Shown here in pieces: positions 191-14,776 of a stretch of DNA of 17,169 nt (position 1 is its first letter; each line of letters opens with the position of its first letter). This DNA is from Candidatus Undinarchaeales archaeon (GTDB lineage: Archaea; SpSt-1190; JASMDC01): assembly GCA_030753015.1 (NCBI GenBank), contig JASMDC010000060.1, forward strand, positions 1 through 17,169, read 5' to 3'. Under the pieces are notes generated by a model. It had not been told where the DNA came from. It was given only the letters and a program-made list of their open reading frames with translations, and searched no databases. The translations under genes were made by a program, and so were the position numbers.

Positions 191-943
191 ATGGACGAAC
201 ACCCACCTCTTATCCACGAGGTAAAGTCCTGCGTCGATGTCGAAGAGAAGAAGGAAGAAGAGGTCCAGCGTGCCAGCCCGTACCTAAGAAGCCCCTACAT
301 GTCCACTCCACGGGACAAGGCTGAGACGAGCATTCCCGGAGTGACAGCGGGCGAGCAGATCGAGGAGGCCAAGGAGGAGGAGGAAGAGGCGTTCAAGGAG
401 GTCCCCTCGCACATCAAACTTATCCGGGCCCTCTATTCCATTCTCAAAATCGTGTTCATCATCGGCATCGTGGTCGGTGCCGGTGTGTTCATCGTCAAGC
501 TCGCCGTGGAGCGGGCTTGGGAAAAGGACCAGGCTCAGCCCAAGGTGTTCTTCGAAGTCGGGTGTCGGGCCCATTATGGATGCGGTGATGAGATCCAGGA
601 AGCATGCGGACTTGACTACAATCCTTATTGTATCGAGATGGAGAACACCGGGGACACCTTCATGCCCCCTACACATTTCAGTGAGCTCACTATCTATTTC
701 AGCACCGCAGACGAATCCTTCACCTACGAGTCTGACCGTATTCGGATGATCAACAAGGACGGCATCTGCACCACGATCGATATGTGCGACAACTGCCCCA
801 GTCTCAAGGAAAAGGGCGGGAGCGTCAAACTCATCCTCCCCCCCGACACCGGAGACATACTCGCCTACTCACATCTCACCTTCACCATCTCGGGTGCGAA
901 CACGGAGTCGGTAAAGAAATGCGAGAAAGCTCCTATCGGGTAG
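191..943 (+). CDS. Single-pass membrane protein with cysteine-rich ectodomain
   Basis: Predicted 250-residue membrane protein of unknown function. Residues 1-76 are charged and acidic, with EEEKKEEE-type and EEAKEEEEEAF runs, and probably cytoplasmic. A single hydrophobic segment spans about residues 81-106 (KIVFIIGIVVGAGVFIVKL core). Residues 107-250 form a putative extracellular domain with eight cysteines (125, 131, 139, 147, 183, 189, 192, 234), enough for four disulfides. The ectodomain contains an ENTGDTF motif followed by alternating hydrophobic strands, loosely like the beta-sandwich of archaeal pilins and archaellins; there is no class III signal peptide, so it is not a canonical pilin. 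I chose ATG 191 because GGTGA and AGGGGAAGG lie just upstream; an in-frame ATG at 155 would add 12 residues and has no such site. The cysteine-rich stalk gene follows after 55 bases, suggesting a shared surface role. Family not recognised. Confidence 0.83.
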   Translation: MDEHPPLIHEVKSCVDVEEKKEEEVQRASPYLRSPYMSTPRDKAETSIPGVTAGEQIEEAKEEEEEAFKEVPSHIKLIRALYSILKIVFIIGIVVGAGVFIVKLAVERAWEKDQAQPKVFFEVGCRAHYGCGDEIQEACGLDYNPYCIEMENTGDTFMPPTHFSELTIYFSTADESFTYESDRIRMINKDGICTTIDMCDNCPSLKEKGGSVKLILPPDTGDILAYSHLTFTISGANTESVKKCEKAPIG

Positions 944-968
944 TTGCGGTAGGGGCGTGGACGCAAGG

Positions 969-976
969 GTTATCAA
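969..976 (+). promoter_or_regulatory. Weak TATA-like element before the cysteine-rich protein gene
   Basis: GTTATCAA lies about 25-30 bases before ATG 999. In archaea this spacing predicts a start of transcription at or within a few bases of the ATG, giving a leaderless message. No GGAGG/GGTGA-like site lies in the preceding 20 bases, which agrees with leaderless initiation. The match to TTTATA is poor, so read-through from the upstream gene is also possible. Confidence 0.3.
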
Positions 977-998
977 TGATTGTGACATAATCTCGTCT

Positions 999-3900
999 AT
1001 GAGGCCCGCCAGGAGACTGGGTGTCATCCTGGTAGTGGCCGCGCTCCTCTTCCACGGCGCCTTTGCCGCCACCTGCGGTCCCCAATCATCCTATTGCGAC
1101 GACAACGGCTACTGCCGCACCGGTGTCTACGTTACGGTTTACAACGCTGATGACGACGAGTACTTCTGCGAGCAATGCAAGCACCAGATCTGGAAGGAGG
1201 ATGCGGACACGGGATCCGGAGAGTGCTGCGGGGACGACGGTCTGGACGATGACTGGTGCGGCAAGTACGGGTACTGCTTCGACGGTGTCTGGAAGGACGT
1301 GTACGGCGAGGACGACTCGCCCTTCCATTGCCAATCGTGCAATGGAGGTACGTGGCATGAGTCGGGGTACTGCTGCGGAGACACTCCGGACGAGTCCTGG
1401 TGCAGGGACGACGGGTACTGTTTCGAGGGCCAGTGGATGACCGTAACGGATCCGAACACCAACGAACACTACTGTACCAATTGTGTGGACATCGACCAGG
1501 ATGGTGTCGCCGACGGAGCCTGGAAGATCGACCTTGACTCAGGTCAGCCCACCTGCTGCGGGGACGAAATTCTCGAGAACTGGCCTGGTCAGGGCGGCGT
1601 CTGCAACCTGGGTGAGTGGCTCTCGGGAGATTGCATCGACGTTAACGACTGCATCGACGAGCCCTGGCTCACCTGCACATCGAACCAGAAGGAATGTACC
1701 AACCATCATTGTCGGTACAACAAGGACTGCTCCTTTTGCTCAGATGCGGACTGGTGCACGTTCTGCGCCGCCGATGATCCCGACCTCACCGAGCGAAGTT
1801 GTACGTGCGCCGGCTACGTCTGGCACGACATTACGTGCTGCGGCGACGATAGCGGCGAGCATTACTTCGAGGATAAACGGTTGTGCTGCCAGGATCCGGA
1901 CTCGTGCACGTCAGGCAACGAATGCTACACTGAGGGAACCATGAAGCTCTTCTTCATCACCAAGGTCTGTGTAGGTGGTGTCTGGGTGAAGGTGGACGTG
2001 CTCCCCGGATCGTTCTACTCAGGAGCGCTCTCGGTCAGCCTCCCTGTCTGGATCGTGGGCACCTCTGCGCGCTGCACTACCGACGACACCGCCCCATGCC
2101 GCGGGATATCCGGCTCCCATAACGTCGTGCTCGGCGAAGATGACGAGGACATCTACATGCGCATCGAGAACTGGGATTTCACCACGGCACTGGACCTATC
2201 CACGCTGGAGTTCACATATGATCCCGAGGGCTACTCGGTCTATTTCCGTAACGGGCTGTCGGTCCCCGTGAGCTTCAGGATGAAACGACGCGATGGCGGT
2301 GTGCTCGAGCGGTGGGACGTGAGCACGTCGTCCTGGCGGGCCCTCGCCGACCATGATGGACTGGAGGTGACCGAGCGGGAGGACGGCTCCTACATCATCA
2401 GGGACACGAAGAGCACTACCGCGTCCATCCGTGATCCTGAGGGTACCTGCGGGGACGATGTGTGCGATGTGAACTTGGGCGACTGCGACAATGGCTGTGC
2501 TGAATGCAACGTGGCATCCTGCGCCGCTGACATCGACTGCAACCTCGAAGTTGGTGAGCGGTGCGATAACGCGCCGTCCCAGTGCACGTGCCCTGACGGG
2601 TACTCCTGCGATCCCGAACAACTCGTGTCCGACGAGAGGGGATGCTACACGGCATCGTGCGGGAACGGCGTGTGCGATCCTGGCGAGTGCAATCTCCCCT
2701 GCCCGGACTGCGATCGGAGGGAATGCGTGGACGACTTCTGCTCGGTCTACCTTGAGGAGAACTGTACAATCGCGCCAGAATGCGGGTGCGACGATAGCGC
2801 CCTATGCGACACGGGCGACGCTCGCTCGGACGCAAAGGGATGCTTCATCCCCAAGTGCGAGGACAGTGTATGCGACCTGGTACATATTGACCTGGCCAAG
2901 AATGTGACAGTCGACCTCCTCCCCCTTCGGGAGTGCGACCGCGCCTGTCTGGGTTGCGACCTCGTCACCTGTGCTAACGACACACGATGCAACATCGGTA
3001 TAGGCGAGAACTGTACGAACTCCAAGATACACTGCGCTTGCCCCATCGATCAGGTCTGCGATCCGCTCAACGCGCTCGCTGACGAGAAGGGATGCTACTC
3101 AAAAGGGTGCGGTGACGGGACATGCGATCCCGGGGAATGCGATATTGCCTGCGTGGACTGCAACACCACAGTGTGCGCCCTGGATCTCAAGTGCAACACA
3201 GCGTTCAACGAGACCTGCGCCTCTCTGCCCACCCAATGTCCGTGTCTGGAGGGCTGGAAGTGCAACATCGCCCACCCGCTCGCCGATGAAAGAGGGTGCC
3301 ACGATCCGAAGTGCGGTGACGGACAATGCGATCCTGGGGAGTGCGCCTCCAACTGCGCGGACTGCAGTCTTGCGGTGTGCACTGGTGACCTCCTGTGCAC
3401 GTTCACTGGAGAGGACTGCAAATCAAGCCCCTTGGATTGCCAATGCGATGCCGCCAAGATATGTGCGCCCGACGATCCGCGGTCCGATGAGATGGGATGC
3501 TACTCCACCTCCTGCGGGGACACGCTCTGCGAGGGGAGCGAGGACTGCTCCTCGTGCACGAAGGACTGTGGGGAATGCCTCTCCCTCCTCACGCCCGTGG
3601 TCGATGCATCAGTCCCACCGGGCAAGACAGCACGGGCTGCGGTCTCGGTGTTCAATCAGGCCAAGGACGCTCTTACCATCTCCCTCTCGCACGACGCTCC
3701 CGCTGAACTGACCTACCCACGGATGCTCCGAGTGGAGGCGGGACAGACCCGCGCTATCGACGTCCACGTCAAGCTCGATGAGAACGCCCGTGGTGCCTTC
3801 AACGGCACCCTTACCATCACCGCCGGGGAGGAGTCCCATACCGCGATCATCCAGGTCACCGTCAAGGGGACGACCACGGTGTACCTCGGCCAGGAGCAGT

Positions 3901-5057
3901 TCAGTCTCACTGCGTCCCCGGGTGGGAAGGCGAACTTCACCTTGCAGGTGGTCAATGCAGCACCGGAGCTCAGACGTGTCGAGCTCACCATCGGCGGTTC
4001 GATCGGACCGTGGCTCTCCCTCGCCGAGACCTCCCTTACCATCCCCACCGAAACTTCCAAGGATGTGATGGTCACTGTGGACGTGCCTTCGGGCACCGAG
4101 ACCGGAAGCCTCAGCGGCACCATCACGTCAACGAGCGGTGAGGAGGAGAGCGTGGCGAAGCTCTCCCTGTTCGTTCTGGAGCGAAAGGCATCCTGTGGTG
4201 ACGGTACCTGCCAACAGGAGGAGGACTGTAAGGAATGCCCGAAGGACTGCGAGTGCGACAATCGGCTCCGGCTCAGCTTGCCGGCCGGAAAGATCATCAT
4301 CGCAGCGGGGATCCCCCAGAGCATCAACGTGGAGGTGCGTAACACAGGTGAGGGTAACCTTACTGATGTCGTCCTCGAGGTCACCATCAAGAAGGGTTCT
4401 GTCAATGTCACTCCCTCCAAGGTGGACATCCCTAACGCTGATGGGGCCATGTTCAACCTCACGCTCATGGTCTCGGAAGAGGGCTCGTATGACCTCCTCG
4501 TCAAGGCCACCTGCACCGAGGGTGCACGGAACGCCAAGCGGCTCGCCATCGAGGTCTCACCGGCACCGCCCGAAGTCATTGAACCCAAGGACGACCTCGA
4601 GGACGACCTCGAGCAGAGCGAGCTGAAGCTGAGGGAGGCCGAGGACAGGATGACCGCGCTCGTCGAGAAGGGCACGGAAGAGGAAGCGCTGGCAGAGCTC
4701 GAGAAGCTTGTCACCGAGGCACGGACAAACGTGGAGATGGCCCAAGAGCTCGCCTCCGATGGTAAGCGTGAGGAGGCGGCACGGCTCGTAGCAGAAGCCG
4801 AGAGCTCCCTGGAGACCTATAGGAGCAAGGCACGGAAGCTGGAACGCGGCTCGGACGTGGAAGATGTACCATCATCCGGATCGAGGATCTCAGGTGTGTT
4901 CAAGGCGTTGCTAGGACTGCTCATCCTGGGTATCGGTGCGTTCGCGATCTCCCTTCGAAAGAAGCCGCCGGCCAGTCCGCCCCAACAGGTCTACGCTGGA
5001 TACCAGGCAGCCCCCATGATGCAACAGGGCGGGTATTACGGCGGCAGGTACATGTAG
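999..5057 (+). CDS. Multidomain cysteine-rich surface protein with C-terminal membrane anchor
   Basis: Predicted 1352-residue exported protein, with about 113 cysteines by hand count. It starts with a clear signal peptide (RPARR, then hydrophobic LGVILVVAALLFHGAFA). Order of parts: CCGD/GYC cysteine repeats, about residues 26-335; a beta-rich domain, about 336-480; five CGDGxCDPGEC repeats plus a partial sixth, 484-860; two Ig/NEW3-like beta-sandwiches, about 864-957 and 958-1060; a lone CGDG module, about 1066-1088; a CARDB-like domain, about 1090-1190; a charged coiled coil, about 1196-1288; a membrane segment, about 1299-1319; and a 33-residue cytoplasmic tail (RKKPP, then Pro/Gln/Gly/Tyr). 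Several N-x-S/T sequons occur in the ectodomain. A GTG at 957 would add 14 residues before the signal peptide, so ATG 999 is preferred. This looks like a rigid disulfide-braced stalk or adhesin. No catalytic motif was recognised and the partner is unknown. The giant exported gene follows after 55 bases. Confidence 0.93.
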   Translation: MRPARRLGVILVVAALLFHGAFAATCGPQSSYCDDNGYCRTGVYVTVYNADDDEYFCEQCKHQIWKEDADTGSGECCGDDGLDDDWCGKYGYCFDGVWKDVYGEDDSPFHCQSCNGGTWHESGYCCGDTPDESWCRDDGYCFEGQWMTVTDPNTNEHYCTNCVDIDQDGVADGAWKIDLDSGQPTCCGDEILENWPGQGGVCNLGEWLSGDCIDVNDCIDEPWLTCTSNQKECTNHHCRYNKDCSFCSDADWCTFCAADDPDLTERSCTCAGYVWHDITCCGDDSGEHYFEDKRLCCQDPDSCTSGNECYTEGTMKLFFITKVCVGGVWVKVDVLPGSFYSGALSVSLPVWIVGTSARCTTDDTAPCRGISGSHNVVLGEDDEDIYMRIENWDFTTALDLSTLEFTYDPEGYSVYFRNGLSVPVSFRMKRRDGGVLERWDVSTSSWRALADHDGLEVTEREDGSYIIRDTKSTTASIRDPEGTCGDDVCDVNLGDCDNGCAECNVASCAADIDCNLEVGERCDNAPSQCTCPDGYSCDPEQLVSDERGCYTASCGNGVCDPGECNLPCPDCDRRECVDDFCSVYLEENCTIAPECGCDDSALCDTGDARSDAKGCFIPKCEDSVCDLVHIDLAKNVTVDLLPLRECDRACLGCDLVTCANDTRCNIGIGENCTNSKIHCACPIDQVCDPLNALADEKGCYSKGCGDGTCDPGECDIACVDCNTTVCALDLKCNTAFNETCASLPTQCPCLEGWKCNIAHPLADERGCHDPKCGDGQCDPGECASNCADCSLAVCTGDLLCTFTGEDCKSSPLDCQCDAAKICAPDDPRSDEMGCYSTSCGDTLCEGSEDCSSCTKDCGECLSLLTPVVDASVPPGKTARAAVSVFNQAKDALTISLSHDAPAELTYPRMLRVEAGQTRAIDVHVKLDENARGAFNGTLTITAGEESHTAIIQVTVKGTTTVYLGQEQFSLTASPGGKANFTLQVVNAAPELRRVELTIGGSIGPWLSLAETSLTIPTETSKDVMVTVDVPSGTETGSLSGTITSTSGEEESVAKLSLFVLERKASCGDGTCQQEEDCKECPKDCECDNRLRLSLPAGKIIIAAGIPQSINVEVRNTGEGNLTDVVLEVTIKKGSVNVTPSKVDIPNADGAMFNLTLMVSEEGSYDLLVKATCTEGARNAKRLAIEVSPAPPEVIEPKDDLEDDLEQSELKLREAEDRMTALVEKGTEEEALAELEKLVTEARTNVEMAQELASDGKREEAARLVAEAESSLETYRSKARKLERGSDVEDVPSSGSRISGVFKALLGLLILGIGAFAISLRKKPPASPPQQVYAGYQAAPMMQQGGYYGGRYM
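1074..1970 (+). repeat. N-terminal CCGD...WC...GYC protein repeats (degenerate)
   Basis: At least three successive units, starting near 1074, 1224 and 1371, follow the pattern CGD, WC, GYC, W.xV, (H/F)C, C, W, then CC. Further CCGD starts at 1554 and 1836 head more divergent units. Unit length is about 48-61 residues. A CxxC-like pair and a Trp-containing strand recur in each. This family is distinct in spacing from the CGDGxCDPGEC repeats further downstream in the same protein. It probably encodes small disulfide-knotted modules. Confidence 0.75.
2448..3580 (+). repeat. Tandem CGDGxCDPGEC cysteine-rich modules (five plus one partial)
   Basis: Units begin at the Cys codons at 2448, 2658, 2856, 3108, 3312 and 3513 and are 70, 66, 84, 68 and 67 residues long; the sixth is truncated to about 22 residues before the beta-sandwich region. 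Consensus: CGDGxCDPGEC..C.DC...C..D..C....GE.C.....C.C...xxCDP....DErGCY. The third unit carries an insertion (VHIDLAKNVTVDLLPLRE) between VCDL and CDR. A separate stand-alone module with the same CGDG start lies at 4194-4260. The DE(R/K)GCY ending is strongly conserved. Known relatives are extracellular cysteine-rich repeats in archaea and bacteria. Confidence 0.85.
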
Positions 5058-5071
5058 GGCCGCCAGCAAAC

Positions 5072-5082
5072 ATTATTTATAC
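5072..5082 (+). promoter_or_regulatory. Archaeal TATA box for the giant exported protein gene
   Basis: ATTATTTATAC has the core TTTATA at 5076-5081, 37 bases before ATG 5113. The standard archaeal spacing puts the transcript start near 5103-5105, leaving a leader of about 8-10 bases with no ribosome-binding site. The box lies in the 55-base gap after the upstream stop, so the giant gene probably has its own transcription start even though the genes are packed in series. Confidence 0.65.
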
Positions 5083-5112
5083 TTCGACCGCGAACCGTGT
5101 GCCGAGCTAGTT

Positions 5113-8100
5113 ATGGGACTGGAACGCGTAAGGACCAGGATCGCATTGACCCTTTTCTTTGTCCTGACAGCGTTATCCACGGGCCTGCCCTTCCTCCCCG
5201 GTCTCGCAGGCCCTGCGGGAGCTCCTCTCGTACCCGCTCTCCCGGGTATGCCTGGTTTCATGGATTTCATGGGACCGTTCCTCCCGCCCTACGTCGAGAT
5301 GGCGTGCCTCGGTGAGTATTACACTGAGTGCCAGGACATCTGGAACTGCGTCGAGGCCTTGCACGAGAGCGATCCCGACGTCAATCTCTGGCTCACAGCT
5401 ACTATCGGCTTCAAGCAGGATATGCGCCTCGTGATCCCGGACGAGCTCCCCCTTACGACCGAGCAGGCCGCTTACGCGATGTTCGGGCTCGTCGTCCCCA
5501 ATCCCATCCCGGTCTCACGCACATCGGTCGATGACATGGCCAGATACTATGTTCTCACCCGATGTAACGCGGTGAAGGCTATACGCGATCCCTTCTGCGC
5601 ACAGTTCAGGGATAGGTTCGGTGAGCGGTCCTCACTGGTCGTTCCCTCTTGCCTGATGCCTCTCCAGTTCAACGATGCCCCAACTGGATTGCGCCCCTGT
5701 GATACCTATGTCAGCAGGGAGGGGACGACCCTCTGCGACTGCATGGCGGCCGCGGGTGGTGATAAGAGCATGTGCACCGGGTTCAAGAGCCTCTGCTCCT
5801 ACGCCGTCGTGAAACAGAACGCGCTCACCGATCCGGGGCTGGCCTCAGCGGCGGACACGGCGGCAGAGGCTGTGGCCGCTGGGGATGATCTTGCGTTCTG
5901 TCGCGACAATCCACTGTGCGCCCGCTCTTGGCCGGACACATCGGCCGTGGACGAGGGCGACCTGGCCACATGGGCCGGCAGGACATGCGCTCGCGAGCTG
6001 AATTACTTCGCGCTCAAGACACTCACCCTCACCCCGACGGGTGCAGAGCACGAGGACCTGACCGCGCGACTTTTCGGCCCGTGCACAGGCGATAAGAAGC
6101 AGGACTGTCTGGCCAACCGGACATGGCTATCCGGTGACTTCCTGCTCCAGTCCTTCACCTCCAACCTCTACGCTCTTAGCAGGAGCCCCTTGGTCAAGTG
6201 CCGTGAGCCGGCACTGCGTATGATCGATACGCAGAACTGTGGTGCGTGCTGGTCGGAGACCCTCTCCTGTTACGAGAACGTACTGGGTAAACAAGTCCCC
6301 CGCAGCCGCGAGGAGCAGCTCACGTCCGGGCTGGTCGACGGGCTCCTACGCCAGCGTTTCGGCACTCTCCACACGTTCCTGGACATGGGGACGGCGGCAG
6401 GTGAACTGGGAATGAGCCTGGCAGGGTGGGGCGATCCCATCTCTGCTGCTGACTTCTCCTCACGTGTTTTCTATGGCGCGTTCTGCATCTCGCTCTGTCG
6501 AATGAAGGGATCTTCGGCCACCGGTGACGCGGCGTCAGGTGACGCGTCAGCAGACTGGATGCGCGCCTGGGGCAACGACGACGAAGTGGCGGGCCTCATG
6601 GTCGGCCACAGTTCGTACAACGCTCGCAGCGGCGAGGCGGCCGAGGTGTACCTCAACCTCATGTTCGGACCTGAGTTCGCTTCCTTAAAGAACGGGTACT
6701 GGCTCCTCGATCCAAAGAAAGTGGCCCAGTGTCCCGCCTACCTGCGGGCCCAGATGGCGCTCCCCCAACCTTCTGCTGATGGACTTTCGGGACAGACGTC
6801 AGCGGGTAACTACCCCTGGCGTGTTGTCATCTCTCGCACCGCCTGGGTGGCCTGCCCCCACAACCTGAAGCTGCCAGCCACAGGCTCGTCCGACGAGTAC
6901 TTCATTTACGACGCCAAGGACCGCCTCTGTAAGACAGGGGTGTTCAAGGACCGGACCGACCGGTGCTACTTCTCGGGCAAGAAACCGACAGGGACGGCGT
7001 GGCGGAAGGGAGGGCTGTTGGATGGCGCCATCGGTCTCGTTTCGGGGACCCTCTTCGATTCGTACGACGAGAGCGCGTTCAAGCCCCGCATCCTCCAGCC
7101 TATCACGGTCAATCCTGGCGATGTACGCGAGCACGTGTTCGGCGTGGTCCTCAACTGTACTGGCCCCATGGACGAGCCGGTGGTCGCCACCTACGCCGGT
7201 GCACCGAAGGTGAAGTGGGTCTACGACGTCTCCAACGATGCGTTCCGTCCCCGCCATGTGTGGCAGTTGTGCAAGGGTGACTCGTGCGAGGAGACCCGGT
7301 ACGTGCACGACCTGCGTGAGATCCCCACGCTCATGGACGAGGAGGAGTACACCCTCCCGCGCCGCATGGGACTGCTCTACGACTGCGCGCGCTGGTTCGA
7401 CAAGGAACGGGGAGTGTGCCTACGTGTCGAGCACTACGGTGTCGACGAGCTTGTCAAGCCACAGGTCACGACCCACCTCGAGCTCCGCGGGTGCGATCGG
7501 TCGGGGATCCGCTGCGACCAGAGCGAGGAGCAGCGCCTGGAGCACGTACCGTTGCTGATGTTCGGTACCGTGGCGGGAAGGCACTATCCCTTCGTCCGTC
7601 CGCTCGAGGCCAAGGAGCAGCCCCTGGAACGGGGTCCGCTCACCCATGTGTTCGATCCCGAGATGATGCTGGACATGGTGTACGACAAGGAGGACTTCCC
7701 GTTCTACCGCAGCACGGGCGGGGACCAAGAGTGCATCAACCTCTACACCGGTGGGTACAACCGGGAGGGGACTGGGAAGCTGGCCGGTCACCTGCTCGGG
7801 CTGGCCTCAGATCCCACAAATCCTTTCGGTCTAGCCGGGATGCTGACCTCGACACTTGATCCGTCCTCATCGGACCTGTCCGGATATTTTGCCCGGAGCG
7901 ATGTCCCCGCTGGTGACCTCCTCCGTTCCGTGGCCGATAACCTCCAGGACTCCATGTCGACGGTCATGCGCATGCAGGGAACCCTGAACCTGTTGGGTCC
8001 ACAGTCCGCTACGTTCGGCGAGAACCTCTCCGCGGAGGGCCGGGAGATGGCCTCGTCCCTGGGCGGAGCGCGCGCCCATAATGAGATGGTCGACGAGGGA

Positions 8101-11100
8101 GTTGCCGAGGCGGCGCGGGTGATCGGGCCGCTCGTAGCATCGATCGTGGCAGAGACCGCCGCTGACGTGGAGTCAGTGACCTTTGCACGGCTGTCCGACG
8201 CCCTTCTCCGTACTGAGGACGGCGTCCCTCTGGCCACGCTCGACGACGTCCATACTTCCGTGGCCGCCCGCCTCGGGCACGACGTTGCTGACGGTCTATA
8301 TGAGCTTGGCCTCAAGCTACTGGCCGAGGATCCTGAGACCGTGCTCTCCGGTATCGATCCGCCCCTCTCACCCGGTGACAGGGCATGGATTATCGGGACC
8401 GAACCGGACCCGGCCATGTGGGACGCCCGGCTCGGTGCCGACATCGCCCGTCAGCTCCGCCACGCCCTCATCCGCTCGGCACGGGACATTCTTCTCTCCG
8501 AGGGCCTAGTGGTGCTGGAAAAGTACGGGATGTCGTCCCTCCACGAGGCGATGATAGCTGACGCCGCCGGTGACCTCCTGCGTCAGGAGCGCCTTCTCGC
8601 CTCCTCGCGCGACGTGCTCCTCAGGCTGATCGTGCAGGACAATGCACAGGACACGGTCCACAACGCGCGCTACCGATTGGGGGACGGCTCGCTCAAGGAG
8701 CTGCGGATGCTGGGAGCCCGGACCATCGCCGTCGAGGGAGAGGGCGTGCTCACGTCCGCCGGTATGCGGCGACTGGCCACGGCCGCTGATGGATTCGGTT
8801 CGCGCGAGCTCGCAGAAGCGCTGGAGAGCGAGCCCTTGACGGTAGTGCCCCGGATCCGAGTGTACTTTGGGGACACGGTCGCCGACAGGATCGAGGAGAT
8901 GCTTGTAACGACGGATGCCGCCACTCTTGCCGCCCGTGTGCGCTCCAGCGGTCTGGAGGGTCTTGGCAACACAGATCTCACCCAGACCACGGTCGCTGTC
9001 GCTGCGCGAAGGCTCGTATCCCAGGGCCTAGCATCCGATGATCCTGCTACTGCCCTGGGCGAGCTGTCCGACGACCTTGCATACGCAGGCATCCGCAGGG
9101 CCGCATCCCTAGGCCCCGATGCAGCAGGACCGCTCACCGCTCGCGCAGTTCGCACGATCGGTGACGATGAATCTCCTGATGATGACATCGCGGTCCTCCG
9201 AGAGGAGCTCAAGGACGCCCAGACCACACGGATGATGCGCATGCTCGCCGAGGATCTCGGGCCCGAGGGCTTCTATCGACTTGTTGCCGATCCTTTGGAG
9301 CTCGAACAGCGAATGAAAAGGCTTGCTGCCCGTCGCCGGCTGGAGGTAATCATCGACCGGCTCACCGCGGGCAATGGGCTCGATGCCCTCGTCGATGCCT
9401 TCAGCGGGCCACTCATGTCACAGGAACGACTTGTGATGCTGGGCCGATCTTACCAGCGCCAAGTGTTCATACGAGCTCAGAAGCTTGCCCCCGAGGGGGC
9501 TCCCACTGACGACGTATGGGCCAACGCGGCTTCGCTCGTGCGCACTGTGTTCACGACAGAAGTTGAGGAGCGGTACATGCAAGACGCGGTGCGTAACACA
9601 CAGAACATCATCAGCGCACGGATCGCCCGTGACCTGGACATCAACGAGCAGGCAGTGAAGGATATCGTCAGGACGCGGATGAAGGCCACAGGTGCCACCG
9701 CTCTGTTCGGCGAGCGGCTCGGTGACGTGGTCTCGAGGGTGTTCGACGACGAGTTCTACGACCTGCCGTCATCCTACATCGAGGACGCTAATCGTCTGGC
9801 AGAGGAGATCGAGCTCGCGGCCCGACGCCAGGCCGAGGAGATGGCGCTCGCTGGGCTGACCGGCTCATCGGACCGCCCAAACACGCTCGCGTTCTCGAAA
9901 GCGGCCCTCATAGATTCCCTTGTGATCGCCCGCAAGCCACAGATCATCTCCGGACTGGCCAGTCCTCTCTACATAGAGGGAAGCCGGAACGCCTTTGGCG
10001 TTGACTGGACACAGGGATTCTTCACGTACATGGCCTCCCTGTGGCGCATCCCTGGATCGAATCCGCCCCAACGTTTCGCTGACAGCTTCGTCGACCGGTT
10101 ACCGGACGCGACCAGCAGGGTATGCCGGGATGAGGGATGGGAGCATATCGTCGTCCGATGCACCGATCCGGCCACATGTGGTCCCGAGGCTGTCCGTGCA
10201 GGGACGCCCGAGGCAAGGCTCCCGGAACCGCCCCTGCAGACCGTCGAGCTGCTGCGCCAGGCATCGCGCTCACCTGCTACCTGCCAGGACGAGTGCGCAG
10301 GTGGCAACGAGCTCATCTATACCAATGGGACCTGCCCGTCCTTCCGACATCTGAACCGGAAGGACCACCTCGACTACATTGCTGTATCGTTGGCCAACCG
10401 CCGTAAGTACCTCGAACGACTGCGCACGACATTGGAGGGGCTGGCCGACGCCACCGAGCGCCGATGTGACGCATGCAAGAACGCCCTCGACGGGCTGGAG
10501 AGCGTCTACGGCGACTGCGTGTTCGCCCTCGACGAGGACATCTGGGATGCCCTTCTCCGCGCTGGCCAGGCACCTCCCTCTCGGGACAAGACGCCCATCA
10601 TCGGTGATTTCCTGGCCACACGACAGGGGAGCGAGCTGCGTGCCGGATTCGCTGACGAACTTGACTACGTGGGCGCTGTCCGCCTCTGCACCGAGCTGTG
10701 CACCTACTGGTCCGCCCAGAATGCGATAGGTGAGAGCTATCTTGAGGGAAGGCTCAAGAACTGTCCGCTCCTAACCATGTCAGCCACTTGCGCAGGTGAC
10801 ATTGCCGTACCGGCGGGGAACGAAGCCGACACCGCCGGTGTGGTGGCCGAACCCTCGGGCATCGCTACCTGCGTCAAGGACGTGCTCGCCACCAAGGAGT
10901 CGTGCACCCTCCTGGGCCTGCGGTTGTTCACCGGAAAGGGCTCGCGGGTGGAGGGGGAGATCGAAGTGGACGATACTGGCTCGGACGATCCTTGCGAGGC
11001 GGCCCGACCCCTCCGTAGGCTCGTGTCCTTCCTTGACGACTACCTCCCTCATCTCGAATCGCTCCGTGGGAACGTTACTGGCTACCTGAAGGGTGCACGC

Positions 11101-14100
11101 TGTCTGGACGAGGCCTCGCTCCCCGAACGTGGCGAATGCCCGTCATGTATCGACGGCGGGACGTACTGCAACGAGTTGCTCGACGCATCGATCCACGATG
11201 CCCTGGCCGAGCTCATGACAGTGACCGGCTTCGGACTCCCCCCCATGGACCAGCGTACGTTCGTCACCCGCCTCACCCAGCTGGTGATGGCGACGGCCGG
11301 CGACCTCAATCCTTCCTACCGCCGGGCTGTTGCCCGCAGCTACCGGGCAAAGGAGGATACCTACCTCGTGTTCGATGAGGGCACGGGTCATGGCCCGACG
11401 GAAGCGCACCCCATGAACGTGAGTTTGTGGTGGGACGTGGTCCACGAACCGTCTGCCGTTGTACGGAACAAGATCCCCTTCACGCTATCACCACGGCTGG
11501 ACGTGACCGCGGCGACCGATCGCGGCCTCGACAATCTCTGCGAATGCCCTGGAGGATGCTTCCTCGCACAGGTCCACCCACGATGGGCGGATAGGCGATG
11601 CAGCGATAGTTCAGACCTGGACACCGATGCGAACTTCTATGACGACGTGTTCCCCGCAGGTACCACCCTCCACGTCAAGCAACGCTTCGAGAACGGAGCC
11701 TTCGTCACCGACTCCCGGGTTCTGGATGATCCCGTGGACGAGGATGCAGACTGCGGCGAGCTCGCATCGAACCAGATCTTCCCCACGTCGGATAACTACT
11801 ACATGGGCTCCGGCGACCTGTCAGGCGATGGCAATGGCGCCCCCCCCGGGAACAAGCGGCTCGTGAACTCCCTCCTGGGCAATGAATGGCGCACGGTCCT
11901 TCTCGAGGGGCTTGCCCGCGACCTGGGGCTCGACACCGTCGTTCCCTGCGCCCCGGCCTGTGGCAGAATACCTGGAACGGTCTCCGAGCAGGGCGCGTTC
12001 CCGCGCTGCGTGCGATGCGAGAACGGTGTATGCGACCTGGAGACCAACTACCCCTTCCATACAGCTGCGGACGCACGCCAGTTCCTGATCAACGCTGCCT
12101 ACCCGTCATCCGTGCCACTGCTCTGCTCAGCCACGCGTACCGCGGGCGACGCTGCTGCTGACGAGGCGACCGACCTCAAGGACCACTTGCGCGAGCTGGG
12201 GGCGCTCTCTGCCGTCTGGCTAAACCGCCTCTTCCCAGTGGACCCATCGTGCTTCGACCTCAGGACCGGTGAGCGCACGGGTGCGGAACGGGTGCAGGAT
12301 TGCCAGGAGGCGTGCCTGGCGCACAAACCGCCGGAGGCGGCCGATGAACTTCTCTACGGCTACTGCCGCGCTGTCGTCAGGGACGAGAGCGTCACGGGAG
12401 TATGCCACTGCGCCACCATCTCCGATCCGCTGGGAACGCCCGTCTCCCGGCCCGAGCCCAGTACGAGGGACGCCTTCCCCATGACCTGCCGTCTTCCCAA
12501 GGAGGCCGCACACTACCGTGAGCTCGCGGAGTGCTGTGTCCGAGACCATGGGTGCTCGGACCTCATCTCCTTCTACAACGGTGATCCTGACGCCTTCGGA
12601 TGTGCTTGCACCACTGGCAACATAGCCCTTGACGCCTACCAGTGCATCGGGACGGCCGAACCGCGTCTGGTTCTCGAAGAGGCGTACTTCAAGGTCGGGG
12701 GCAGTCCATCGCGCACGCATGCTTTCCGGGGCGAACGTGTGCGATCGTGCGTGGTGCTCACAAATGAGGGAGGGGCCACATTCAGGGGTCCGATCGTCGT
12801 GGAGCCGCTGGACACGGGCGGCGTGCCAGCATGGACCCGGCCCGATGGCTGTGACCGGCCTCCGTCCTGCACGCTCATGGGCACCCTGCGCCTCTCGACC
12901 GCGATGCCGGCCGCATCGCTGGCCCTTCCCGGGGGCCGCGTGCTGGAGCTCGAGCTCGCTGGCATCGATGCGGACTGTACCGTGCACCTGACCACCCGGC
13001 TCGCCGCCGAGGGCGTCGTCACAGAGGTGGTCATACCCGCCCATGCAGACGACCTCTGTTCGATCGCGACCATCACGGACGAGGTGCTGGTGGCGGCAAC
13101 TGTCCCGGGGACGGTCTGTGACGAGGCGACGGCCCTGGTCCAGATCCGTGTGCAGGTCCAGACACATCGCGGTCGGTGCGCCATCACCAACAACTGCGAC
13201 GGTGCTCCACCTCTCGACCTGGTCGCCACACGGCCTGCAGGCCCATGTGCACACACTGCAGCACCTTTCACAGTCCAGCCAGGAGAGAACATAGCTGTAT
13301 GCTCGGCTCCAGTGGTCGTGACCGAGACCCTCCTAGGTACTGGCCAGGCCGGCGAGCTCTCCGCACGTATATCTGCCTGGCACGATGACCGTGCTGTGCT
13401 GAGCAATCTCACCACCCGGTCCTACCTCCCGCTCCGCAGGGGTCATCCCGGTGTTGAATGGATCGCTATCGGGGGGGACGTGACCGGTGACGAGACGTTC
13501 CCCGGCTCCGCTGTCGGTGTGCGTGCCACGCTTGCCAACAACCTCGACGAACCCTTCTCAGGTGTCCTGCGCCTGACCATCACCGACGACCTCGGCAACA
13601 CCCTCCTCACAGAGACAAGGGACGTGCCGCCGATACCCGTAAGGGATGTCGTGACCGTCTCGACCACGACAACGAACATCGAGCCAGAGGATGTCGGCAG
13701 AAAGCTGCGGGCGGGGCTCACCCTCTGGGACGCCGTTGGCGTGAAGCGCTACGATCTCACGCCCGACCACACATACCCCCGAGCCTCCGTGGTTGTGGCG
13801 ATGCCGCGCCTGACCGTCGAGGACGGCTTCTTCCGGGAACCCGACGGGGATACACGGCTCTCGACCGCACGCACCTGCGACAACGTCAGAGCGCTCGTTG
13901 AACTGTCGAACCCAAGCCCGCTCGGTTTCGCCGGACGGTTGGCCCTCTCGGTGTACCATGTGGAGTCCAATGACCTACTGGCTACGGCCGTGGACAACGC
14001 TTTCCGGCTCCCGTCAGGGGCACGCACCTCAGCTCTCCTCACGTCACTGGAGCTCGTGGTTCCGTCACTGGGGACCTACCTCATCCACGTCAACCTCACG

Positions 14101-14457
14101 GACCGCAATGGTGTCCGCTGGCACGAGGGGAACGTGGACGTGGCCGACCATCCCTCGGCACGGCTGCGCGTTCGCGAGGACGGCCCGTCCTGCGATCTCC
14201 CACCGTCCTCCATACAGGCCCCTGCGGCCATCGATGTGTCCTGTCCGAAGGGTGCCCGCACACGCCAGCTCCAGTTCTCCTACTGCACTGGCGGTGGATG
14301 CCTCACACGAAAGAACGGCGCTGATGGTTGCTATATGCTCGTTCTGTGCGACGGCTGCCCTGAAGAGTTCGTTCCACAGGTCGCGACCCGGACAGACGGC
14401 TCCTGCCAGCTCGCGAACGCGCCATGCTGTGAGGACTGTCGTATCCAAGTGCGGTAG
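5113..14457 (+). CDS. Giant (3114-residue) exported protein with cysteine-free helical core
   Basis: Predicted 3114-residue exported protein; family not recognised. The N-terminus has a signal-peptide-like segment (RVRTRIALTLFFVLTALS) followed by a Pro/Gly-rich stretch. Residues 65-874 form a mixed region with 34 cysteines. Residues 875-1670 contain no cysteine and are largely predicted helical, rich in Ala/Leu/Arg/Glu/Asp. Residues 1671 to the end hold 66 cysteines. Within this part, about 1671-2500 is mostly cysteine-rich alpha/beta, about 2517-3020 looks like three or more tandem Ig/CARDB-like beta-sandwiches (starting near 2517, 2777 and 2897), and the last 90 residues form a small cysteine-knot-like end (CCEDC near the terminus). 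Counts were made by hand. There is no C-terminal membrane segment, so it is secreted, or held by an uncleaved N-terminal segment or by partners. A TATA box sits 37 bases upstream of the ATG. Frame is intact over 9.3 kb. I infer a structural role, such as surface filament, adhesin or coat; no catalytic motif was seen. Confidence 0.93.
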   Translation: MGLERVRTRIALTLFFVLTALSTGLPFLPGLAGPAGAPLVPALPGMPGFMDFMGPFLPPYVEMACLGEYYTECQDIWNCVEALHESDPDVNLWLTATIGFKQDMRLVIPDELPLTTEQAAYAMFGLVVPNPIPVSRTSVDDMARYYVLTRCNAVKAIRDPFCAQFRDRFGERSSLVVPSCLMPLQFNDAPTGLRPCDTYVSREGTTLCDCMAAAGGDKSMCTGFKSLCSYAVVKQNALTDPGLASAADTAAEAVAAGDDLAFCRDNPLCARSWPDTSAVDEGDLATWAGRTCARELNYFALKTLTLTPTGAEHEDLTARLFGPCTGDKKQDCLANRTWLSGDFLLQSFTSNLYALSRSPLVKCREPALRMIDTQNCGACWSETLSCYENVLGKQVPRSREEQLTSGLVDGLLRQRFGTLHTFLDMGTAAGELGMSLAGWGDPISAADFSSRVFYGAFCISLCRMKGSSATGDAASGDASADWMRAWGNDDEVAGLMVGHSSYNARSGEAAEVYLNLMFGPEFASLKNGYWLLDPKKVAQCPAYLRAQMALPQPSADGLSGQTSAGNYPWRVVISRTAWVACPHNLKLPATGSSDEYFIYDAKDRLCKTGVFKDRTDRCYFSGKKPTGTAWRKGGLLDGAIGLVSGTLFDSYDESAFKPRILQPITVNPGDVREHVFGVVLNCTGPMDEPVVATYAGAPKVKWVYDVSNDAFRPRHVWQLCKGDSCEETRYVHDLREIPTLMDEEEYTLPRRMGLLYDCARWFDKERGVCLRVEHYGVDELVKPQVTTHLELRGCDRSGIRCDQSEEQRLEHVPLLMFGTVAGRHYPFVRPLEAKEQPLERGPLTHVFDPEMMLDMVYDKEDFPFYRSTGGDQECINLYTGGYNREGTGKLAGHLLGLASDPTNPFGLAGMLTSTLDPSSSDLSGYFARSDVPAGDLLRSVADNLQDSMSTVMRMQGTLNLLGPQSATFGENLSAEGREMASSLGGARAHNEMVDEGVAEAARVIGPLVASIVAETAADVESVTFARLSDALLRTEDGVPLATLDDVHTSVAARLGHDVADGLYELGLKLLAEDPETVLSGIDPPLSPGDRAWIIGTEPDPAMWDARLGADIARQLRHALIRSARDILLSEGLVVLEKYGMSSLHEAMIADAAGDLLRQERLLASSRDVLLRLIVQDNAQDTVHNARYRLGDGSLKELRMLGARTIAVEGEGVLTSAGMRRLATAADGFGSRELAEALESEPLTVVPRIRVYFGDTVADRIEEMLVTTDAATLAARVRSSGLEGLGNTDLTQTTVAVAARRLVSQGLASDDPATALGELSDDLAYAGIRRAASLGPDAAGPLTARAVRTIGDDESPDDDIAVLREELKDAQTTRMMRMLAEDLGPEGFYRLVADPLELEQRMKRLAARRRLEVIIDRLTAGNGLDALVDAFSGPLMSQERLVMLGRSYQRQVFIRAQKLAPEGAPTDDVWANAASLVRTVFTTEVEERYMQDAVRNTQNIISARIARDLDINEQAVKDIVRTRMKATGATALFGERLGDVVSRVFDDEFYDLPSSYIEDANRLAEEIELAARRQAEEMALAGLTGSSDRPNTLAFSKAALIDSLVIARKPQIISGLASPLYIEGSRNAFGVDWTQGFFTYMASLWRIPGSNPPQRFADSFVDRLPDATSRVCRDEGWEHIVVRCTDPATCGPEAVRAGTPEARLPEPPLQTVELLRQASRSPATCQDECAGGNELIYTNGTCPSFRHLNRKDHLDYIAVSLANRRKYLERLRTTLEGLADATERRCDACKNALDGLESVYGDCVFALDEDIWDALLRAGQAPPSRDKTPIIGDFLATRQGSELRAGFADELDYVGAVRLCTELCTYWSAQNAIGESYLEGRLKNCPLLTMSATCAGDIAVPAGNEADTAGVVAEPSGIATCVKDVLATKESCTLLGLRLFTGKGSRVEGEIEVDDTGSDDPCEAARPLRRLVSFLDDYLPHLESLRGNVTGYLKGARCLDEASLPERGECPSCIDGGTYCNELLDASIHDALAELMTVTGFGLPPMDQRTFVTRLTQLVMATAGDLNPSYRRAVARSYRAKEDTYLVFDEGTGHGPTEAHPMNVSLWWDVVHEPSAVVRNKIPFTLSPRLDVTAATDRGLDNLCECPGGCFLAQVHPRWADRRCSDSSDLDTDANFYDDVFPAGTTLHVKQRFENGAFVTDSRVLDDPVDEDADCGELASNQIFPTSDNYYMGSGDLSGDGNGAPPGNKRLVNSLLGNEWRTVLLEGLARDLGLDTVVPCAPACGRIPGTVSEQGAFPRCVRCENGVCDLETNYPFHTAADARQFLINAAYPSSVPLLCSATRTAGDAAADEATDLKDHLRELGALSAVWLNRLFPVDPSCFDLRTGERTGAERVQDCQEACLAHKPPEAADELLYGYCRAVVRDESVTGVCHCATISDPLGTPVSRPEPSTRDAFPMTCRLPKEAAHYRELAECCVRDHGCSDLISFYNGDPDAFGCACTTGNIALDAYQCIGTAEPRLVLEEAYFKVGGSPSRTHAFRGERVRSCVVLTNEGGATFRGPIVVEPLDTGGVPAWTRPDGCDRPPSCTLMGTLRLSTAMPAASLALPGGRVLELELAGIDADCTVHLTTRLAAEGVVTEVVIPAHADDLCSIATITDEVLVAATVPGTVCDEATALVQIRVQVQTHRGRCAITNNCDGAPPLDLVATRPAGPCAHTAAPFTVQPGENIAVCSAPVVVTETLLGTGQAGELSARISAWHDDRAVLSNLTTRSYLPLRRGHPGVEWIAIGGDVTGDETFPGSAVGVRATLANNLDEPFSGVLRLTITDDLGNTLLTETRDVPPIPVRDVVTVSTTTTNIEPEDVGRKLRAGLTLWDAVGVKRYDLTPDHTYPRASVVVAMPRLTVEDGFFREPDGDTRLSTARTCDNVRALVELSNPSPLGFAGRLALSVYHVESNDLLATAVDNAFRLPSGARTSALLTSLELVVPSLGTYLIHVNLTDRNGVRWHEGNVDVADHPSARLRVREDGPSCDLPPSSIQAPAAIDVSCPKGARTRQLQFSYCTGGGCLTRKNGADGCYMLVLCDGCPEEFVPQVATRTDGSCQLANAPCCEDCRIQVR

Positions 14458-14515: not shown

Positions 14516-14776
14516 ATGGCCATCACGTATCTTGAGGTCGCACAGTGGGTTGACCGGGAGCTCATCAGGAACAAGGAGATGGCCGAGCTGAAGGAGCTCC
14601 TTCTCGAGACCGCCGGGGCGATCATCGAGGTCGACTGCGGTCAGCAGCCCAGGATGAGCCCCGAGCTGTACGCCCTGGCGAGTAGCACGAACAAAGAGAT
14701 CCTCGAGGACTCCCTCATCGACGTCGAGACCGACCTCCGCAATGTGCTCAAGAAGAACGCCCAGTGCGGGGAGTAG
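14516..14776 (+). CDS. Small acidic helical cytoplasmic protein, unknown function
   Basis: An 86-residue protein of unrecognised family. It has no signal peptide or membrane segment and looks mostly helical: ITYLEVAQWVDREL, then NKEMAELKELLLETAGAII, a short loop with CGQQPRMSPE, and a final amphipathic helix from about residue 56 to 81 (KEILEDSL...DLRNVLKK). Two cysteines are present. It could be a small oligomeric or regulatory adapter; no DNA-binding helix-turn-helix or metal-binding motif is evident. It follows the giant gene by 58 bases but has its own strong TATA box. It converges on the beta-propeller gene, with only 9 bases between the two stop codons, so their 3' ends probably overlap as antisense RNA. 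The start is fixed by the promoter position and by good coding character from the first residue. Confidence 0.88.
   Translation: MAITYLEVAQWVDRELIRNKEMAELKELLLETAGAIIEVDCGQQPRMSPELYALASSTNKEILEDSLIDVETDLRNVLKKNAQCGE

Follow-up and report, generated by a model that had tools for sequence, protein, structure and literature searches.

Three genes lying in series on one strand of an archaeal contig were proposed to encode the parts of a single surface assembly, and the question raised by this locus is whether their products work together and for what purpose. The window, i.e. the whole stretch of DNA analysed, is the entire contig C74 of 17,169 bases with 190 bases between the contig start and P0001, and because of this the genes preceding P0001 are unseen. 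The host archaeal genome (G000) has 3,845,586 bases (3.85 Mb) in 117 contigs, with a completeness of 98.9% and a contamination of 5.0%; no rRNA gene was found in this assembly by the 16S search. The nine same-class genomes used for comparison are of 0.6-1.1 Mb each. All three genes were found to be real, their open reading frames matching the claimed positions, and gaps of 55 bases separate P0001 from P0002 as well as P0002 from P0003. The features are listed below.

191..943, + strand: P0001, single-pass protein with an acidic cytosolic part, a membrane segment and an 8-Cys ectodomain
about 413-517, + strand: membrane segment of P0001 (residues 87-121 of the 262-aa form)
about 518-940, + strand: 8-Cys ectodomain of P0001
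999..5057, + strand: P0002, exported, C-terminally anchored candidate stalk with 113 Cys and a Tyr/Gln/Gly-rich cytosolic tail
2436..3578, + strand: CGDGxCDxGEC-type cysteine repeats of P0002 (residues about 494-874)
3606..4175, + strand: Ig-like domains of P0002 (residues about 884-1073; Pfam FixG_C, E=4.5e-6)
4596..4826, + strand: coiled-coil-like Glu/Ala-rich stretch of P0002 (residues about 1214-1290, by eye)
4884..4961, + strand: C-terminal membrane segment of P0002 (residues 1310-1335, by hydropathy)
5073..5081, + strand: archaeal TATA-like box TTATTTATA, 32-40 bases before the giant ATG
5113..14457, + strand: P0003, exported anchorless giant of 3114 residues with 100 Cys
5305..7734, + strand: first Cys-rich block of the giant (residues 65-874, 34 Cys), conserved with the C22 paralogues
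7735..10122, + strand: Cys-free Ala/Leu/Arg-rich segment of the giant (about residues 875-1670), poorly conserved and mostly absent in paralogue A
10123..14439, + strand: second Cys-rich block of the giant (66 Cys), with the C-terminal module (residues about 2820-3025) and a closing Cys cluster

The export and membrane features attributed to the three proteins were also borne out. P0001 (250 aa from ATG 191, or 262 aa from ATG 155) has one membrane segment with eight of its nine Cys beyond it, P0002 (1352 aa from ATG 999, or 1366 aa from GTG 957) combines a signal-like N-terminus with a C-terminal anchor, and P0003 likewise starts with a signal-like stretch, with no membrane segment after it. 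The even cysteine counts offered as evidence in the original prediction are meaningless, as P0002 has 113 Cys and the two closest paralogues of the giant have 85 and 81. In agreement with the prediction, no known S-layer, archaellum or pilus family was recognised in Pfam, NCBIfam and PDB sequence searches, which gave weak Ig-like matches for P0002, no usable match for P0001 and no recognised domain or enzyme for P0003. A PACE-CTERM S-layer protein with a C-terminal sorting anchor was considered for P0002 and rejected (19.8 bits against a cut-off of 110). A type IV pilin or archaellin, judged by a class III signal peptide followed by an N-terminal helix, was rejected as well, the P0001 membrane segment lying at residues 87-121 and the signals of P0002 and P0003 being Sec-like (by eye).

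P0003 belongs to a family within its own genome. Two paralogues in tandem sets on contig C22 (2792 and 2703 aa) share about 25-30% identity with it across long stretches in an alignment spanning most of P0003, and this similarity is far beyond chance. In the three-way alignment, 64 of the 79 aligned cysteines (81%) are invariant, whereas no other residue exceeds 38%, which fits a conserved, putatively disulfide-linked scaffold. The profile of the conserved block gave no convincing relative outside the own genome among 394 archaeal genomes and no match in the genome_contigs dataset; a 17.6-bit match in the same-class genome G002 was taken as chance, its locus holding only a 156-aa gene. No SLT or other peptidoglycan-hydrolase domain was found in P0003 using Pfam and NCBIfam. 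The C-terminal module is common to the P0003 family and a second subfamily of giants, g2 (profile match 96%, E=2.6e-9). The single-sequence AlphaFold model of residues 2720-3040 reached a pLDDT of 33.9 and was discarded.

A single operon is doubtful because of the TATA-like box preceding the giant. Such motifs were commonest 20-50 bases upstream of the open reading frames in a sample of 263, hence a promoter of its own is probable for the giant, which may be transcribed separately. No clear TATA box was seen upstream of P0002, and P0001 and P0002 may be transcribed together.

Paralogues of P0002 were found in the own genome on C73, C25, C38, C36 and C51, and its cysteine repeats are 39-44% identical to those of the C73 and C25 copies. 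These P0002-type proteins have the cysteine repeats and, in most cases, the C-terminal anchor and the Tyr/Gln/Gly-rich tail. They adjoin other large Cys-rich proteins on C73 and C38, and one or two genes separate the two on C36 and C51. The nearest parallel to P0002 and P0003 is the pair on C20, where the genes for an anchored 2032-aa protein, whose cysteine repeats resemble those of P0002, and for an anchorless giant of 2153 aa share four bases. This giant matches subfamily g2 and contains Peptidase_M23 (E=1.4e-34) and NlpC/P60 (E=9e-19) domains with the catalytic motifs of both. Archaea are without peptidoglycan, so the hydrolase domains suggest that the C20 set is aimed at bacteria. Other giants of the genome have Kazal, C-type lectin and TSP3 domains. 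The genome carries about a dozen duplicated sets for very large exported Cys-braced proteins, and the window is one of them. In the sampled contigs, 22 proteins of at least 1000 aa with at least 30 Cys were counted, and a protein of 4130 residues with 636 Cys is encoded at C51:104057-116449.

The pairing of an anchored Cys-rich stalk with a large, mostly anchorless Cys-rich neighbour was thus upheld by its recurrence on C20, C73 and C38, a recurrence partly reflecting duplication within this one genome. P0002-like proteins stand without an adjoining giant in the same-class relatives G005, G007 and G009, which partly goes against the proposed linkage; they have the C-terminal anchor and the Tyr/Gln tail, and the two complete ones have 136-138 Cys. 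The closest giant paralogues sit with two other proteins, termed mid and end, and not with a P0002-type stalk, which goes against the linkage as well.

Both C22 giants are followed by mid and then by end; neither type adjoins P0003 on C74, which ends 190 bases before P0001. Mid is a protein of about 690 aa with an N-terminal membrane helix, preceded in most copies by an RGQ motif, and end is a secreted protein of 960-1007 aa with a signal peptide. Pairs of mid and end are present on C22 (two), C26, C29, C30, C39 and C76; other giants accompany them on C29, C30 and C39, those of C30 and C39 belonging to g2. The first-type counts are equal, with three giants (two on C22 and that of the window) and three mid/end pairs (two on C22 and one on C26). 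The C26 pair is of the subtype matching the window giant and has no such giant adjoining it, and it may be the partner of P0003. At C39:25914-33836, a giant of 2640 residues has a mid-like segment (residues 355-765) inserted in it.

Mid is the more widely conserved component. A search with its profile, built from eight paralogues, recovered remote relatives of full length in other archaea, and homology to Woesearchaeota proteins was detected over the N-terminal 400 positions (hhalign 99.1%, E=1e-18). Scanning of named genomes gave 40 loci, mostly labelled Woesearchaeota or Nanoarchaeota. Out of 42 mid genes, three at a contig end and one with its neighbour cut short were left out, and in 33 of the 38 testable copies a large exported protein follows directly on the same strand, being the second gene in two more. 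These neighbours are of about 1000-2700 aa where complete. Pfam domains in 20 of them included SLT (7), Amidase_3 (2), Peptidase_M15_4 (2) and Glucosaminidase (1), so that at least seven carry peptidoglycan-hydrolase domains. No homology between the woesearchaeotal giants and P0003 was detected by hhalign with the shallow profiles at hand, and because of this the peptidoglycan link reaches P0003 by gene-set analogy. The model of a woesearchaeotal mid (pLDDT 83.5) has a long N-terminal helix, an alpha/beta part and CnaB/transthyretin-like sandwiches, and the CnaB-like domain of mid also matches the Sulfolobus S-layer anchor SlaB. Orthologues of end outside the own genome were not accepted, the profile matches being weak and partial. 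In the same-class genome G002 (C1:65827-75763), an exported giant of 2366 aa is followed by a 570-aa N-anchored protein and a 365-aa protein, with no match to the mid profile.

On the basis of the directly observed gene structure, paralogy, cysteine conservation, pair recurrence and hydrolase domains of the sister sets, we infer that P0002 would be a disulfide-rich stalk displayed at the surface and anchored in the membrane through its C-terminal end. P0003, exported and anchorless, would probably be retained in complex with an anchored partner, which may be P0002, the mid/end pair of the genome, or the two together. We picture the giant as probably a rigid arm, braced by disulfides, with an Ig-like module and a Cys cluster at its end. 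It would most likely serve to contact other cells and, in some copies, to attack them. Bacteria are the most plausible partners, given the peptidoglycan hydrolases of equivalent giants; the window copy may be a binding arm or the carrier of an activity yet to be recognised. Contact with or attack on bacteria would be the most likely reading, drawn from the sister sets and not from the window giant. Taken as a whole, the explanation that P0002 and P0003 together make up one copy of an expanded modular surface family for cell contact has, in our judgement, about an even chance of being correct.

Other explanations were weighed against it. The many copies of Cys-rich secreted proteins, the weak PACE-CTERM match of P0002 and the SlaB match of mid would suit giants and stalks that form a coat or sheath of the archaeon itself, unrelated to other cells. 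We regard this as rather unlikely, since the giants differ strongly among copies, some have lectin, Kazal or peptidoglycan-hydrolase domains, and it is hard to see what hydrolases of peptidoglycan would do in the envelope of an archaeon. It is unlikely that P0003 is released as a free extracellular product, with its own promoter and with P0002 adjacent by chance: anchored and anchorless large Cys-rich proteins are repeatedly neighbours in the genome, even though the missing anchor, the TATA-like box of the giant and the P0002-like proteins of relatives that stand without a giant would agree with such a release.

The original prediction had also included P0001 in a three-part set, and this part was found to be unsupported. 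Its paralogues in the own genome (full-length C51_80830 and partial copies on C29 and C117) mostly lie apart from stalk and giant pairs, and no P0001 relative was found in the same-class genomes. A complex with P0001 as an essential subunit, for which the common strand, the 55-base gaps and the possible shared transcript with P0002 could be cited, is hence very improbable, and P0001 probably lies outside the anchored stalk and giant system.

Among known systems, large murein-lytic proteins of Woesearchaeota have already been described (Castelle 2021, PMC8204110; cf. Vigneron 2022, PMC9723730). In the accessible text these fam00969-like proteins are, like P0003, exported archaeal proteins, reaching about 3000 aa, and by size, host group and SLT domain the giants next to mid are probably members of this family. 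P0003 differs from them in having no SLT domain, no detectable homology and far more conserved Cys, and an anchored partner does not figure in the accessible text of that description (PMC8204110). The SPEARE proteins, giant surface proteins of Nanohaloarchaeota (PMC6642349, PMC10266531), are likewise giant exported archaeal proteins, of DPANN hosts and thought to contact other cells; they have their own membrane anchor, a cytosolic VirB4/TraG-like ATPase and LamG domains. Membership of P0003 was rejected, as no membrane segment past the signal peptide and no ATPase or LamG domain was found in it. Archaeal peptidoglycan hydrolases are reported to kill bacteria (Strock 2025, PMC12352652), and their domains are of the kind present in the sister gene sets, whereas no hydrolase domain was recognised in the proteins of the window.

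We came across no account of the anchored partner, of the family expansion or of the P0003 giant family. How archaea attack bacteria or attach to them, and whether they do so at all, is an open question, and a conserved anchored partner beside large exported proteins, many of them bearing peptidoglycan-hydrolase domains, provides a search handle across DPANN archaea as well as a testable protein set; the giant of the window would stand for a family of Cys-braced giants not studied so far. It is a speculative and rather doubtful extension that this large-genome archaeon has turned a DPANN-type stalk and giant module into a multi-copy, exchangeable arsenal of disulfide-braced arms for seizing and opening bacteria, with peptidoglycan peptidases in some copies and uncharacterised binding or killing domains in others, the window's included.

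Further open reading frames lie in the remainder of the window. One of 86 residues (14516-14776, + strand) lies directly past the giant and has its own upstream TATA-like box, CTTTATAT. Convergent with the giant is P0004 (14786-16075, - strand), which is lipoprotein-like with an LSGC motif and seven FG-GAP repeats. P0005 (16118-17167, - strand) has a membrane segment and a DUF4350-like domain, which was also seen by eye in C51_85899, a CGDGVC-repeat protein adjoining another large Cys-rich gene.
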